Made by a program: the position numbers and the translations under genes. This document shows, one piece after another, positions 28,307-36,309 of a DNA stretch of 64,000 nt. The notes beneath the pieces are model-generated. The model did no database searches. It was not told the origin of the DNA and saw only the letters and a list, made by a program, of their open reading frames with translations. The stretch is from a bacterium (GTDB lineage: Bacteria > Hinthialibacterota > Hinthialibacteria > OLB16). Location of the stretch: contig JAJVIK010000007.1 of the NCBI GenBank assembly GCA_022072055.1, forward strand, positions 372,001 through 436,000, given 5' to 3'. Position 1 is the first letter of the stretch. Every line of letters starts with the position of its first letter.

Positions 28307-28344
28307 GTGACTCTTCCGATCTTCCGGGCCGCGCTCATGACGGT

Positions 28345-29100
28345 CCTCCAACTCCCACGTCCGCGCGAGTTGCAGCACTTGATTGCCGTGCTGTTGGAGG
28401 TATCCAATTCCTCCAACTCCCACGTCCGCGCGAGTTGCAGCACGATACATAGTAGGAGGGTGGGGTTGGTTTGCGCCTCCAACTCCCACGTCCGCGCGAG
28501 TTGCAGCCGGCGTACCCGGTGCCAACGGAGGAATCACGCCATCCTCCAACTCCCACGTCCGCGCGAGTTGCAGCACGATGCAGAGACCAATCAGCATAAG
28601 CAACATTCCTCCAACTCCCACGTCCGCGCGAGTTGCAGCTATCGAGGAGGTCGAGGATTTGCGGGCGCGAATCCTCCAACTCCCACGTCCGCGCGAGTTG
28701 CAGCCACGCCTACACGGACCCTGTGTTGGCGGTTTTTCTCCTCCAACTCCCACGTCCGCGCGAGTTGCAGCTCCACGTCGTCCCAGGAATCCCCATCGTT
28801 GAGTCCTCCAACTCCCACGTCCGCGCGAGTTGCAGCTCATCCGCAACTCGGGTGGCGTTGGAGTCCGTGAGCCTCCAACTCCCACGTCCGCGCGAGTTGC
28901 AGCCGCATTGCCCATCGGTCGAAAAGGGTGTCACATTCCTCCAACTCCCACGTCCGCGCGAGTTGCAGCAGCGCCTCGATTGAAGATGGGGAATGCGCAA
29001 TACCCTCCAACTCCCACGTCCGCGCGAGTTGCAGCGAACGACATCGCCGACATCATCACTCATTTTGGCCTCCAACTCCCACGTCCGCGCGAGTTGCAGC
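28345..29100 (-). CRISPR. CRISPR array, 12 repeats and 11 spacers
   Basis: Twelve identical 32-nt repeats start at 28345, 28410, 28476, 28543, 28608, 28673, 28740, 28805, 28872, 28938, 29004 and 29069. On the plus strand each begins CCTCCAACTCCC and ends GCGAGTTGCAGC. Spacers are 33, 34 or 35 nt and all differ. The repeat holds the inverted pair CAACTC/GAGTTG, a 6-bp stem with a 12-nt loop. Neither end repeat is degenerate and no AT-rich leader is obvious, so direction cannot be read from the array. I place it on the minus strand because the effector gene upstream reads that way. No Cas1/Cas2 lies within the window. Confidence 0.98.
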
Positions 29101-29189
29101 CGTACGCCTCGTAAGTTCAAGGCGTCCAGCAACCTGGGAACCCCTTTCCGCGAACCTCACCAACGCCACTCTGGTCTCGCAGTTCTCTG

Positions 29190-29481: not shown

Positions 29482-30882
29482 TCACGCATCCGTCGGCTTT
29501 GCCTGACGGATGACCTCTTCGATGTCAAGGATTGAAAGATTCCGCGCCGCGTTCTTGTCGGCGTTGTCCTTGTGGCCACATTTGACACATTCAAAGTGCG
29601 ACTGACGCTTCTCTCCCTTCGGACGATTAGCGCGGTCAATGTGGCCGCACTTGTTGCAACGCTGAGAAGTATAACGCGGATCGACGAATTCAAGAGTCGC
29701 GTCGATTTTGGCGGCCCACCAGCGCACCGCGTCAACCACCGATCCAGGTGCCCAATTCCGGGCGAGCCAGGGTTTATCCTCCTTGATGTCGGCACCGAGC
29801 TTCTCCATCCGCCATTTCCCGGCTCCGTTCCTCTTGGCCACCTCGGCAATTCGCGCCGCGATCCGCTGGGAAGCAGTCTTCATGACTCGCTTCTCTCGCT
29901 TACGCAGTTCACGAAGCTTCTCCTTGGCTGCCTCTCTTGATTTCTTGTCCAGTGGGCTGTCCTTGGAGCGCAGGGCGCGGAGGAGCCGGACAATCTCACC
30001 CCGGATTGTCGCGCGAGTAATCAGCATGTCGCGCCCTCGGCCAATACACATGGCCCACTTGCTCGGCTTTCCCTGCTCCTCTCCACCTCGATAGTCTCGA
30101 ATATGGAGGGCCGCCGGAACCGTAACTCCGAGGTCAATTCCCATCACAATTTCAGGGTCGATACTCTTGTACGGCTCAGGTTCATAAGAAACAACAATTT
30201 GCCCCAACCAACGTGGTCCTTGGCTCCTTGGATTCTTCCTAAGCCTTGAGTTCTTGAGCTTCCATTCTCCCGAACTAACCCGCAGAAGCTGCCCAAGCAT
30301 TGTCTTATCACGCGGTTTGACCTTGATTGGGAATGCAATCCAATTCGGGATTCCAGATTCCTTGGACCATTCCATGCTGAACACTTGGGACGCAAGGTAG
30401 AAGCGGCCGTCCTGCTCGTGCAACACGGTTTCCGCCGCGCGCATCATGATGGGATGGGTGCCGTCAGTGCGATGGGTGGGGAGCTGTCGTTTTCCCGTCA
30501 GCAGCAGGTCTTTGAGGTGGTCACCCTGAAAATGCGGCTTCGATCCGAGCTGATAGGTTTGACTCAGAATCGAACCGCTCAGGGAGGTGGCCCGATCCAA
30601 CCTTTCCTTGATGGACTTGTAGCTCGGTTTGAACCGCTCCGAGTCTTCCTTTGGAACCCCAAGGACTCGCTTGGCGTACTCCTTGGCTGTTTCCACATTG
30701 CAGATCATGGCAATGGTTTCCGCGCCTTCCCGGAGCGAATTGTAAACCTTCTTGCGCTGATCCTCTTGAAGTAAAAGGAGAGTCTTCGTGCGAACATCGA
30801 AACCGAGCGGTTGCCCTAACCCGAAGGTCAGAGTTTTGGTTAGACTCTTCGAGTTCTCCGGCAATGGGGCTTCCGATTCCAT
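29482..30882 (-). CDS. Compact Cas12/TnpB-like RuvC nuclease (candidate type V CRISPR effector)
   Basis: 466 aa from the ATG at 30882, which has GGAGG five bases upstream; an earlier ATG at 30915 (477 aa) lacks one. The C-terminal half carries a split RuvC nuclease. RuvC-I is GIDLGVTVPAAL (D250), preceded by the usual strands (GEWKLKNSRLRK, LGQIVVSYE). RuvC-II is MEKLGADI (E360). A four-cysteine zinc ribbon follows (C409, C412, C432, C435; TSQRCNKCG and CVKCGHKDN), then RuvC-III as DNADKNAARNL (D442). All catalytic acids are present, so it should cut DNA. The N-terminal half matches nothing I recognise, as expected for Cas12 recognition lobes. The size lies between TnpB (about 400 aa) and Cas12f (400-700 aa). 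GC content is visibly lower than in neighbouring genes. It lies 381 bp upstream of the array on the same presumed strand. Confidence 0.85.
   Translation of the reverse strand: MESEAPLPENSKSLTKTLTFGLGQPLGFDVRTKTLLLLQEDQRKKVYNSLREGAETIAMICNVETAKEYAKRVLGVPKEDSERFKPSYKSIKERLDRATSLSGSILSQTYQLGSKPHFQGDHLKDLLLTGKRQLPTHRTDGTHPIMMRAAETVLHEQDGRFYLASQVFSMEWSKESGIPNWIAFPIKVKPRDKTMLGQLLRVSSGEWKLKNSRLRKNPRSQGPRWLGQIVVSYEPEPYKSIDPEIVMGIDLGVTVPAALHIRDYRGGEEQGKPSKWAMCIGRGRDMLITRATIRGEIVRLLRALRSKDSPLDKKSREAAKEKLRELRKREKRVMKTASQRIAARIAEVAKRNGAGKWRMEKLGADIKEDKPWLARNWAPGSVVDAVRWWAAKIDATLEFVDPRYTSQRCNKCGHIDRANRPKGEKRQSHFECVKCGHKDNADKNAARNLSILDIEEVIRQAKPTDA
29488..29511 (-). other. Hairpin at the 3' end of the effector gene
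   Basis: ATCCGTC-GGC-TTT-GCC-T-GACGGAT folds into a 10-bp stem with one bulge. It overlaps the last codons of the nuclease gene, just before its TGA at 29482-29484. It could mark the mRNA end or belong to a guide-RNA scaffold, as structured RNA overlaps the tnpB 3' end in IS200/IS605 elements. Confidence 0.5.
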
Positions 30883-30992
30883 CCTCGCCTCCAGCTCGGG
30901 TGAATAGCTGCCCATGATGTGATGAAGCTTGAATTCATGGACAAGGCCAGAATGGGGCCGAAGTTACCGAAACTCCCTGTAGGACGCAATCC

Positions 30993-33224: not shown

Positions 33225-34334
33225 ATGCGAACGTTACCCCCCCTTTTCGCGGCGGCGCTGATTCTGGCTTCCGCGATCCCCACATGGGCCCAATTCGGCA
33301 GCGCGCCGATGACCCCGGGAGCCTCCGCGCCACAAGCCACGACCCCGACGAGCGCCCCCGCTCCCCCCGCTCCATCGTCATCCGGTCCGGTGCCGATCAA
33401 ATGGTACCAGCATGACACCGGATATGTGGTCGCGGTGCCCTCGGACCAGAACCTCGGCCCCGGATTCAGAGAGATTCAACCTCCCTCCTCAAGCGCCGCG
33501 GCTCCCTCCGTGGCGACCGCGCCTCCCGCGCCTGTGTCAGCTCCGGTTTCCAGCGCCCAAACCTATTCTCAGCCCACATCTCCACAACCATCCGGCCCGG
33601 CGGTGGCGTTTTCGCAGGCGCCCGCACCCTATTCCCAGCAGTCCTTTTCGCAACCGTACTCCACCCCGCTTTCCCAGCCCCAGACGCAGCCCAGCACGGC
33701 GGGTAAGAAGTGGATGCAGCACAAGAGCGGCTATCGGGTGATTGTGGACGCCAACACCACGCCCGGCCCGGAGTTCGTGGAGATCCCGCCGCCCAACACC
33801 ACCATGGGGACCCCCTATGGAGCCCCTCAGACCCCCGCCATGCCCCAGGCTTCCGCCTTTTCTCAGCCGCAAGCGGCGCCCAGCGGCCCGCAGACTTATT
33901 CGCAGATTCCCATGACTGGGGGCTCCACCCCGGCGCGCCCGATGGGGACCGGCGCGGTGGCCCTGCCGAACCTTCCCCCTAGCATGCAGCGGCAGCTCCC
34001 TTATCAGCCGCCGACGCCGGCCGGAGTTCCCCCCGCTCAGCCGACTTACCAAGCCCCGACCGGCTACAACCCGGCGTATGGAACCGGGCAACGTCCCACG
34101 GTCCGCTCCGCTCCCCCCGGGAAAAAGTGGGTCCAGCAGGATAACGGGATGCGTTTCCTGGTGGATGCCAACACCATACCCGGTCCCGGCTTCCGGGAGC
34201 TGACCGATGAAGAGGCTAGCCAACCGCTCCGGATCATGGATCCCCGGATGCAGCAGCAACAACAGCAGCAGCCCCAGCAACAGGGATTCGGGAGCGGGTT
34301 CCGCAACTGGATCTCCAATCTCGGGCGACGCTGA
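33225..34334 (+). CDS. Secreted Pro/Gln-rich protein with three 27-residue repeats
   Basis: 369 aa, no family recognised. Signal peptide (LPPLFAAALILASAIPTWAQ). Three copies of a motif of the form K-W-x-Q-x-x-x-G-x-x-x-x-V-x-x-(10)-P-G-x-x-F/x-x-E lie at residues 59-84, 161-187 and 300-326. They are separated by low-complexity Pro/Gln/Ser/Ala linkers and followed by a poly-Gln tract near residue 344. The repeat units are clearly homologous (for example KKWMQHKSGYRVIVDAN and KKWVQQDNGMRFLVDAN). This layout suggests a surface or periplasmic structural/binding protein. A strong terminator-like hairpin follows the stop. Confidence 0.75.
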   Translation: MRTLPPLFAAALILASAIPTWAQFGSAPMTPGASAPQATTPTSAPAPPAPSSSGPVPIKWYQHDTGYVVAVPSDQNLGPGFREIQPPSSSAAAPSVATAPPAPVSAPVSSAQTYSQPTSPQPSGPAVAFSQAPAPYSQQSFSQPYSTPLSQPQTQPSTAGKKWMQHKSGYRVIVDANTTPGPEFVEIPPPNTTMGTPYGAPQTPAMPQASAFSQPQAAPSGPQTYSQIPMTGGSTPARPMGTGAVALPNLPPSMQRQLPYQPPTPAGVPPAQPTYQAPTGYNPAYGTGQRPTVRSAPPGKKWVQQDNGMRFLVDANTIPGPGFRELTDEEASQPLRIMDPRMQQQQQQQPQQQGFGSGFRNWISNLGRR

Positions 34335-34426: not shown

Positions 34427-34927
34427 ATGGAACGTCGGAACTTCTTCCTCTCCACCCTATCGCTTCTGAGCGCGGGGACTGTCGCGGCGATGGCCGCCGC
34501 GCCCGCGGCGCTGCATGCCCTCTCCCCGCTGCTCAAGCGCGCCAAGAACAACCACGACTGGCATGATCTGGGACCGGTTGAGGACCTGACCGCCGATCAG
34601 CCGCTCAAGAAGACCATCGAGGTGGTCCGCAAGGATGGCTGGCAACTCCGTCGCCAAGACCAGGCGGTTTACCTGATTCCGGGCGCTGGAGGGCCGGTGG
34701 CTGTGTCCTCGATTTGCCCGCATCTGGGATGTCCGGTTTCGTATAGCGCCGAAAGCGCTCAGTTCGAGTGTCCCTGCCACAAGTCATTCTGGGGTCCGGA
34801 TGGGAAGCGGACCTCCGGCCCCTCGCCGCGCGACTTGGATCCCCTTCCGACAAAAGTCGAGGAGGGCCGCCTTTACTGCCGCTGGGTCACCTATCAAACC
34901 GGGATCGAGACCCCGGTCGAGGCTTGA
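34427..34927 (+). CDS. Rieske [2Fe-2S] protein of a cytochrome bc-type complex
   Basis: 166 aa. A twin-arginine start (ERRNFFLSTLSLLSAG) gives a membrane anchor exported folded by Tat. The cluster boxes are CPHLGC (C97, H99, C102) and CPCHKS (C115, C117, H118), the complete set of two Cys plus two His ligands and the disulfide pair. It transfers electrons from quinol at the Qo site to a c-type cytochrome. The cytochrome b/c fusion begins 20 bp downstream, so the two form a two-gene bc complex operon. Confidence 0.94.
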   Translation: MERRNFFLSTLSLLSAGTVAAMAAAPAALHALSPLLKRAKNNHDWHDLGPVEDLTADQPLKKTIEVVRKDGWQLRRQDQAVYLIPGAGGPVAVSSICPHLGCPVSYSAESAQFECPCHKSFWGPDGKRTSGPSPRDLDPLPTKVEEGRLYCRWVTYQTGIETPVEA

Positions 34928-34947: not shown

Positions 34948-36309
34948 GTGGGCGGTTGGCTTGAGGAACGGACCGGACTCCCGAGCGCGCTCCGGCGCTG
35001 GTGCGAGCGCCCGATTCCCGGAGGCGCCCGATGGTCTTATTCCCTCGGCGCGGCCTTGTTGGCGCTGCTCCTTGTTCAGGTGACAACCGGCATCGCGCTC
35101 TCCTTGTCCTACTCGCCCAGCGCCGACACCGCCCACTCCAGCGTGCAGTTCATCATGGAGGAGGCCTTTCTCGGGCAATTCATCCGCTCGCTCCACTATC
35201 ATGGAACCAACTTCACGGTCACTTTTCTGATCCTCACCGCCGTGCGGTTGGTGATCGCGCGGGCCTACCGGAAACCCCGGGAGATTCAGTGGCTGGTCGC
35301 TTTCGCGCTCGGCATGCTGGTGCTGGCCACCGCCATCACGGGCTATGTGTTGCCGTGGGACCAGTACGGTTATTGGGGGACCCAGGTTCGGACCTCGATC
35401 ATGGGGTCGGGTCCGGTGGTGGGCCCGAGGCTTAAGACCTTCGTGCTGGGGGGAAATGAGCTCGGCAACCTGACACTCACCCGTTTCTACACCGCCCATG
35501 CCCTGCTGCTTCCGGCGCTGTTTGCTGTTCTGCTGCCGGTGTATTTCCGTCTCGCGGCGCGCCATGGAGTCCCCACCCCCAAGGGAGGCGCGGAGCCGGT
35601 GGTTCCCTACTGGCCGTTCCAGGCGGCCCGTGACAACAGTTTCGCGCTGCTGGTTCTGGCGGCGCTTTTTGGGGTGGCGCTCTTGTTTCCCGCTCGACTG
35701 GGGGAGGTCGCGGATCCCCAGGTGACCTATCCCGCGCGCCCGGAGTGGTATTTCCTGTGGCTCTTCCAGACCCTCAAGTACTTCAAGGGTCCGCTTGAAG
35801 TGGTCGGCACGGTGGTCATTCCGCATGCCGTGGCGGTGGTGGTCGCGCTGCTGCCGTTCTTGGATCGTGGGGAATCCTGGAGCGGGCTGGGACGAAGAGC
35901 GGTTCTGGGGATCCTCGCCCTGATTGTTTGCGGGTGGGCCTCGCTTTCGGCGCTCGCGCTCTGGGAGGACCTCAAGTCGGGGCACTTCGCGGAGCTCGCC
36001 CTCTGGGAGGCGACTCCCGATGAAGGTTGGGATGTGGAGGGTTGTTACAAGCAGAAGTGCGCGAAGTGCCACGGGCGGGATGGAGCCGGATATCTGGATT
36101 CAACCCCGGATTTCACCCTGCCGGAGTATTGGAAAGGCGCGCGCTCGGATGTGCGTCTGATCAAGGCTATCCTCAAGGGGATTCCCAACGAAAACATCCC
36201 GGAGGATGAGCGGATGCCCGCTTTCGAGAAGGAGCTCACCCCAGGACAAGCCAAGGCGATGGTCGTTTGGAAGCTGCGACCTTTTGGGGAGGCTTCTGAA
36301 AAGGAGTAG
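34948..36309 (+). CDS. Cytochrome b6/subunit IV-like protein fused to a C-terminal cytochrome c domain
   Basis: 453 aa. Residues about 1-210 match cytochrome b6 (LPWDQYGYWGTQV) and 230-350 match subunit IV (PEWYFLWLFQTLKYFKG, the Qo PEWY motif). The last 100 residues hold one c-heme site, CAKCH at 371-375. The first-pair histidines are present as H83 (RSLHYHG) and H184 (FYTAHALLLP). The second-pair positions are Thr97 (ILTAVRL, where b6 has LHVFR) and Tyr199 (LLPVYFR, where b6 has MHF). It may therefore hold one b heme instead of two. GTG 34948 follows GGGGGAG; the frame extends upstream only by overlapping the Rieske gene. Confidence 0.9.
   Translation: MGGWLEERTGLPSALRRWCERPIPGGARWSYSLGAALLALLLVQVTTGIALSLSYSPSADTAHSSVQFIMEEAFLGQFIRSLHYHGTNFTVTFLILTAVRLVIARAYRKPREIQWLVAFALGMLVLATAITGYVLPWDQYGYWGTQVRTSIMGSGPVVGPRLKTFVLGGNELGNLTLTRFYTAHALLLPALFAVLLPVYFRLAARHGVPTPKGGAEPVVPYWPFQAARDNSFALLVLAALFGVALLFPARLGEVADPQVTYPARPEWYFLWLFQTLKYFKGPLEVVGTVVIPHAVAVVVALLPFLDRGESWSGLGRRAVLGILALIVCGWASLSALALWEDLKSGHFAELALWEATPDEGWDVEGCYKQKCAKCHGRDGAGYLDSTPDFTLPEYWKGARSDVRLIKAILKGIPNENIPEDERMPAFEKELTPGQAKAMVVWKLRPFGEASEKE

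Follow-up and report, generated by a model that had tools for sequence, protein, structure and literature searches.

The cytochrome b gene at positions 34,948 to 36,309 (+) of the window, which is the whole 64,000-nucleotide stretch of DNA analysed here, encodes a protein that has kept both histidines for the p-side heme bL and lost both for the n-side heme bH. Judged on sequence comparison, the protein and its Rieske partner are best explained, with slightly better than even confidence, as a derived mono-b-heme quinol:cytochrome c oxidoreductase without the bH/Qi branch, which is probably non-bifurcating. In complex III, a pair of b hemes spanning the membrane is regarded as the invariant core.

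The 453-residue product comprises the cytochrome b helices A-G and a fused C-terminal mono-heme cytochrome c domain, as delimited by Pfam, AlphaFold2 and PDB matches, and its ORF starts with GTG at 34,948, with a purine-rich stretch immediately 5' of the start. Pfam returned Cytochrome_B (PF00033, 2.6e-41), Cytochrom_B_N_2 (PF13631, 1.1e-36), Cytochrom_B_C (PF00032, 9.7e-7) and a C-terminal Cytochrome_CBB3 (PF13442, 9.7e-8), so that the Cytochrome_B and C-terminal domains of the Rieske/cytochrome b (bc1/b6f) superfamily fold are both present. The AlphaFold2 model reached a mean pLDDT of 83.6, mostly above 90 in the membrane core and low in the c domain, and its best PDB matches in Foldseek were all cytochrome b, confirming at the level of the predicted structure that the fold is that of an ordinary cytochrome b. 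The PEWY-type Qo motif of the superfamily lies at Pro265-Tyr268 (35,740-35,751, +) and reads PEWY or PEWF in all three proteins of the family to which the window protein belongs. A c-type cytochrome acceptor is supplied by the fused domain, whose CAKCH heme attachment motif (Cys371-His375; 36,058-36,072, +), already picked out in the preceding sequence-only reading, was found in the translation, by Pfam and in the family alignment; the distal ligand is likely Met423 (MPAF). In the segment from the last membrane helix to the c domain, an SGHFxExALWE-type stretch contains a further histidine that is invariant in the family, His346 (35,983-35,985).

The Rieske [2Fe-2S] protein (34,427-34,927, +; 166 aa; PF00355, E = 7e-11) has a twin-Arg type N-terminus (MERRNFF...) and is encoded 20 bases upstream of the cytochrome b gene. 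As had been claimed from the sequence, this linked protein has intact cluster ligands, since alignment located the CPHLGC and CPCH motifs (Cys97/His99/Cys102 and Cys115/Cys117/His118) at 34,715-34,780 (+), and these ligands are invariant across the three family proteins. From the Ser/Tyr pair known to raise the potential of Rieske proteins (PMC12954380), the window protein keeps Ser and substitutes Trp for Tyr; this suggests that its potential is lower, in line with the expectation for menaquinone. The neighbours of the pair are unrelated (sugar kinase, MiaB-like protein, glycosyltransferase, GH123), and, the Rieske gene apart, none of the three family genomes shows a conserved operon partner next to it. 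Directly upstream of the Rieske gene, an ORF at 33,225-34,334 (+) encodes a Pro/Gln-rich, secreted-looking protein with repeated W-x-Q-H/D segments and no Pfam match. Elsewhere in the window, a CRISPR array (28,344-29,111; at least 12 copies of the ~32-nt repeat CCTCCAACTCCCACGTCCGCGCGAGTTGCAGC, spacing 65-67) lies beside a gene (29,482-30,915, -) for a 477-aa Cas12f/Cas12u3-like nuclease (PADLOC Cas12u3, 2e-53; PDB 8j3r, 1e-26), and the two together form a compact type V-F candidate.

The bis-His pair for heme bL consists of His83 (35,194-35,196, +), invariant in the three family proteins and in all 125 four-His sequences used for comparison, and His184 (35,497-35,499, +), supported by translation, family alignment and column test. 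At the expected bH ligand positions, 14 residues after His83 and 15 after His184, stand Thr97 (35,236-35,238, +) and Tyr199 (35,542-35,544, +), so that helix B runs H83-YHGTNFTVTFLIL-T97 and helix D H184-ALLLPALFAVLLPV-Y199, where b6 has His at both end positions. Alignment against PDB structures of b6 and bc1, together with AlphaFold2 and Foldseek, identified both sites as the canonical ligand positions, which confirmed the two replacements noticed in the sequence-only reading. The bis-His pair for heme bH is missing from the relatives as well, which have Ile or Cys in place of Thr97, and Tyr199 is shared by all three family proteins.

A different histidine, for instance His85, could have filled the vacant positions, and alignment ruled this out: His85 lies on the p-side, two residues after His83, and one relative has Tyr there; the histidines invariant across the family are limited to 83, 184, 346 and 375 (the two bL ligands, a p-side His and the His of the c-heme), and no His occupies positions 96, 98 or Val198 next to the lost sites in the window translation. 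Neither is any Lys, Met or His conserved at or beside positions 97 and 199 in the three family proteins, so heme bH is very probably missing. Likewise, none of the three has the helix A Cys to which heme cn is bound in b6f.

The same Rieske and cytochrome b genes stand adjacent in two further genomes of this small family of uncultured bacteria, G001 and G002, with Cys/Tyr and Ile/Tyr at positions 97/199; identity to the window proteins is 45-46% for cytochrome b and 38-42% for Rieske. Because the ligand loss is common to both, a sequencing error or chimera is ruled out. A family profile run over 386 genomes scored the three members at 828-840 bits and everything else at 295 bits or less. Four histidines are retained in the other cytochrome b-bearing members of the phylum and throughout 80 named genome loci, where two apparent exceptions were alignment gaps with His by direct reading and one helix B that had escaped the pattern showed its His in the alignment. 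In a maximum-likelihood tree, the three family proteins cluster together (SH-aLRT 99) within a supported group of 43, 40 of them four-His proteins, and the n-side ligand loss is, on this phylogeny, one derived event from four-His ancestors. The exact placement of the family is unsure as its branches are long (0.55-1.07 vs a median of 0.25). Protein and Pfam searches of the source genome (5.86 Mb, 97% complete) yielded no second cytochrome b, which excludes there a heterodimer with a four-His cytochrome b; such a protein does occur in relative G002 (C581).

The change extends beyond the two ligands. With sides assigned from the standard topology, one or more family members differ at five of the eight n-side columns that are at least 95% invariant among the 125 four-His proteins (Gly34, His97, Arg111, Gly118, His199), compared with 1 of 17 on the p-side (Fisher p = 0.0055), a contrast that takes in both ligand columns and weakens to 3/6 vs 1/17 without them. 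When ligand positions are left out, the family members share an n-side identity of 0.26-0.32, against a median of 0.38-0.40 for four-His pairs at equal p-side identity, and only 1-14% of such pairs are as low as the family. By these sequence measures, the n-side half is eroded and the Qo motif, the bL pocket, the Rieske ligands and CxxCH are retained. The faster n-side evolution and the long branches could alternatively mean partial decay.

Loss of n-side ligands is not confined to this family. Among 212 surveyed cytochrome b rows, 200 read HHHH, and the remaining 12 comprise eight genuine n-side losses (three from the window family) and four truncations or alignment slips, read as canonical or undecidable. 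The losses outside the family fall into four lineages (L182, L186, L191/L201 and L268), so n-side ligand loss is rare but recurrent, and uniqueness of the window family is ruled out. The L186 protein (320 aa), which belongs to an independent Rieske-cytochrome b pair (L225, 8,570-10,053, +), has no canonical n-side ligands and carries Arg at the Qo position discussed below. L268 and L226 (5,260-6,297, +) have Gln for the helix B bH ligand and keep the helix D His; L226/L182 is surrounded by genes for NrfD and multiheme cytochromes. Two dissimilar cytochrome b genes stand in tandem in each of two unrelated genomes (L223, 9,619-10,842 and 7,990-9,375, -; L224, 9,024-10,250 and 10,943-12,232, +), one gene of each pair being devoid of both n-side histidines with Arg at B+14, the other keeping four His and being fused to a two-cluster 4Fe-4S domain; an MvhD-like ORF follows the tandem genes in L224. 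These arrangements suggest an asymmetric, ferredoxin-linked Rieske/cytochrome b complex.

Only five residues are identical in the window family yet rare among the four-His set, namely Ser52, Arg148, Tyr199, Tyr221 and Trp271. Arg148 (35,389-35,391, +), a charged residue of the Qo channel that is diagnostic for the family, is paired in a gap-free alignment with Ile162 of R. sphaeroides, which lines the quinol channel to Qo (PMC10041115). The position is charged in none of 199 readable four-His sequences, where G, A, T, I, S, V, L and F are found, and in three of five ligand-loss lineages (Arg in the window family and L186, Glu in L268), with Leu in L182 and Val/Met in the L191/L201 type. Since the position was picked after the family had been seen, independent evidence on it comes solely from the other lineages, which are few. 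From its location, Arg148 may stabilise the semiquinone anion needed by a sequential two-electron route. A broader proposal, that bifurcating enzymes have repeatedly been converted in nature to non-bifurcating ones by n-side ligand loss together with a semiquinone-stabilising Arg or Glu in the Qo channel, independently in the window family, L186 and L268, is put forward tentatively and is rather doubtful.

The respiratory context is compatible with such a change. The source genome encodes an Alternative Complex III set (ActB with 4Fe-4S, ActC/NrfD and a fused ActD-cytochrome c, ActD-E, matching PF11821 at E = 5e-65), whose genes directly precede a heme-copper oxidase (COX1) gene. The genome also has two genes of the futalosine menaquinone pathway and encodes a NorB-type reductase, a second COX1-COX3 fusion and a bd-like protein (52 bits). 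NrfD and COX1 genes are present in all three family genomes, and G002 matches the NrfD-to-COX1 gene order. With Alternative Complex III beside a heme-copper oxidase, a Q-cycle enzyme looks dispensable and could be altered without halting respiration.

In the preferred explanation, the n-side branch, comprising heme bH together with its surroundings, would have been lost once in the family ancestor and the p-side quinol-oxidation machinery kept. Quinol, predicted to be menaquinone made by the futalosine pathway, would be oxidised at the Qo site, its first electron passing via the Rieske cluster to the fused periplasmic c-heme and its second to the single b heme, bL. As there would be no bH, heme cn or transmembrane wire to Qi, the bL electron could not drive n-side quinone reduction and would most likely go back through Qo (bL to quinone or semiquinone to Rieske), or move between the two bL hemes of a dimer; both electrons would then end on cytochrome c, with a yield of about 1 H+/e- rather than 2, and Alternative Complex III could carry the main quinol oxidation. 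The double ligand loss argues, from sequence, against a Mitchell Q-cycle with Qi reduction through bH, antimycin-type inhibition and 2 H+/e-. The mono-heme b subunit with a modified Q-cycle envisaged in the sequence-only reading is supported, being consistent with all the sequence evidence, and is extended by the family-wide trait, the four-His ancestry, Alternative Complex III and the parallel losses in other lineages. In R. capsulatus, bH is lost when one n-side His is converted to Asn, and what is left is an antimycin-insensitive bL phase (PMC4330944); back-transfer from bL to quinone at Qo has been documented (PMC8138165). Against this explanation, normal turnover fails in R. capsulatus once bH has been removed by engineering, and an enzyme that lacks bH in nature would therefore have to compensate.

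If both electrons go to Rieske, the strong retention of the bL bis-His pair needs a further reason. The chief rival is a shortened Q-cycle, in which a quinone in the vacated bH cavity would take the bL electron, so that bifurcation and some energy conservation survive. Full retention of the bL and Qo sites is most easily explained by bL passing electrons onward, and two n-side hydroxyls that are new and invariant in the family, those of Tyr199 and Tyr221, could bind quinone; however, the packing positions Gly34 and Gly118 are enlarged in individual family members, suggesting a filled cavity, and no Qi-type motif is specifically conserved, which leaves this rival unlikely. Vestigiality, with Alternative Complex III having taken over and the Rieske/cytochrome b pair decaying under relaxed selection, would fit the NrfD and COX1 genes of all three genomes, the Alternative Complex III gene set, the long branches and the faster n-side evolution. 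Decay would not spare one half of a protein, though, and the two genes remain intact and side by side in three genomes whose cytochrome b identity is only ~46%, with Qo motif, bL pocket, Rieske ligands and CxxCH conserved, so that this option appears distinctly unlikely.

An n-side heme still bound by unusual ligands, such as the Tyr199 oxygen with Cys/Thr97, would accord with the invariance of Tyr199 and with R. capsulatus, in which Lys at a bH ligand position restores function through working His-Lys ligation (PMC4807273), but position 97 varies among Thr, Ile and Cys, there is no conserved Lys, Met or His in the vicinity, and the constraint on the heme-packing glycines is gone, which makes it very improbable. 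Equally improbable is another direction or partner, with quinone reduced from cytochrome c or bL feeding an unknown partner, for although the fused c-heme is a possible donor or acceptor, the neighbouring genes are uninformative and a NorB-type reductase is encoded, no conserved partner gene accompanies the pair in any of the three genomes and a high-potential acceptor oxidase is present.

The strictness of Qo bifurcation is a long-standing question. A natural enzyme with Qo, Rieske and bL but without bH would be a ready test of bL alone and of short-circuit control, and the Arg148 correlation offers a single-residue experiment. In the open-access papers searched, neither a natural bH-less cytochrome b nor the combination of natural double bH-ligand loss, sole cytochrome b and changed Qo residue was found.

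Among known systems, the fused Rieske/cytochrome b-c complexes of Planctomycetota, Myxococcota, Acidobacteriota and Nitrospira (e.g. Kuenenia Kuste3096-3097, PMC12954380) share the Rieske gene plus b/c fusion polypeptide and include the closest sequences (up to 46% identity), but have all four b-heme histidines and mostly two CxxCH motifs, where the window protein has two histidines and one CxxCH. The label "b6-type" given in the sequence-only reading is accordingly loose: the helix D His spacing of 15 and the best PDB sequence matches are indeed those of cyanobacterial and plastid b6f, whereas the nearest kin are the fused proteins of the first three phyla, and the separate b6 and subunit IV genes, heme cn Cys and both bH ligands of b6f proper are replaced by a single fused gene with none of these. 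The R. capsulatus bc1 "bH knock-out" H212N (PMC4330944, PMC4807273) likewise lost an n-side ligand with bL remaining, but is a laboratory mutant of impaired turnover, while the window protein is natural, with both ligands gone and their surroundings changed. Alternative Complex III (ActABCDEF) is also a quinol:cytochrome c oxidoreductase without a bH/Qi branch, but belongs to an unrelated protein family with no Rieske or cytochrome b. All parts of the window complex come from known families, and the variant that they form is rare rather than unique.
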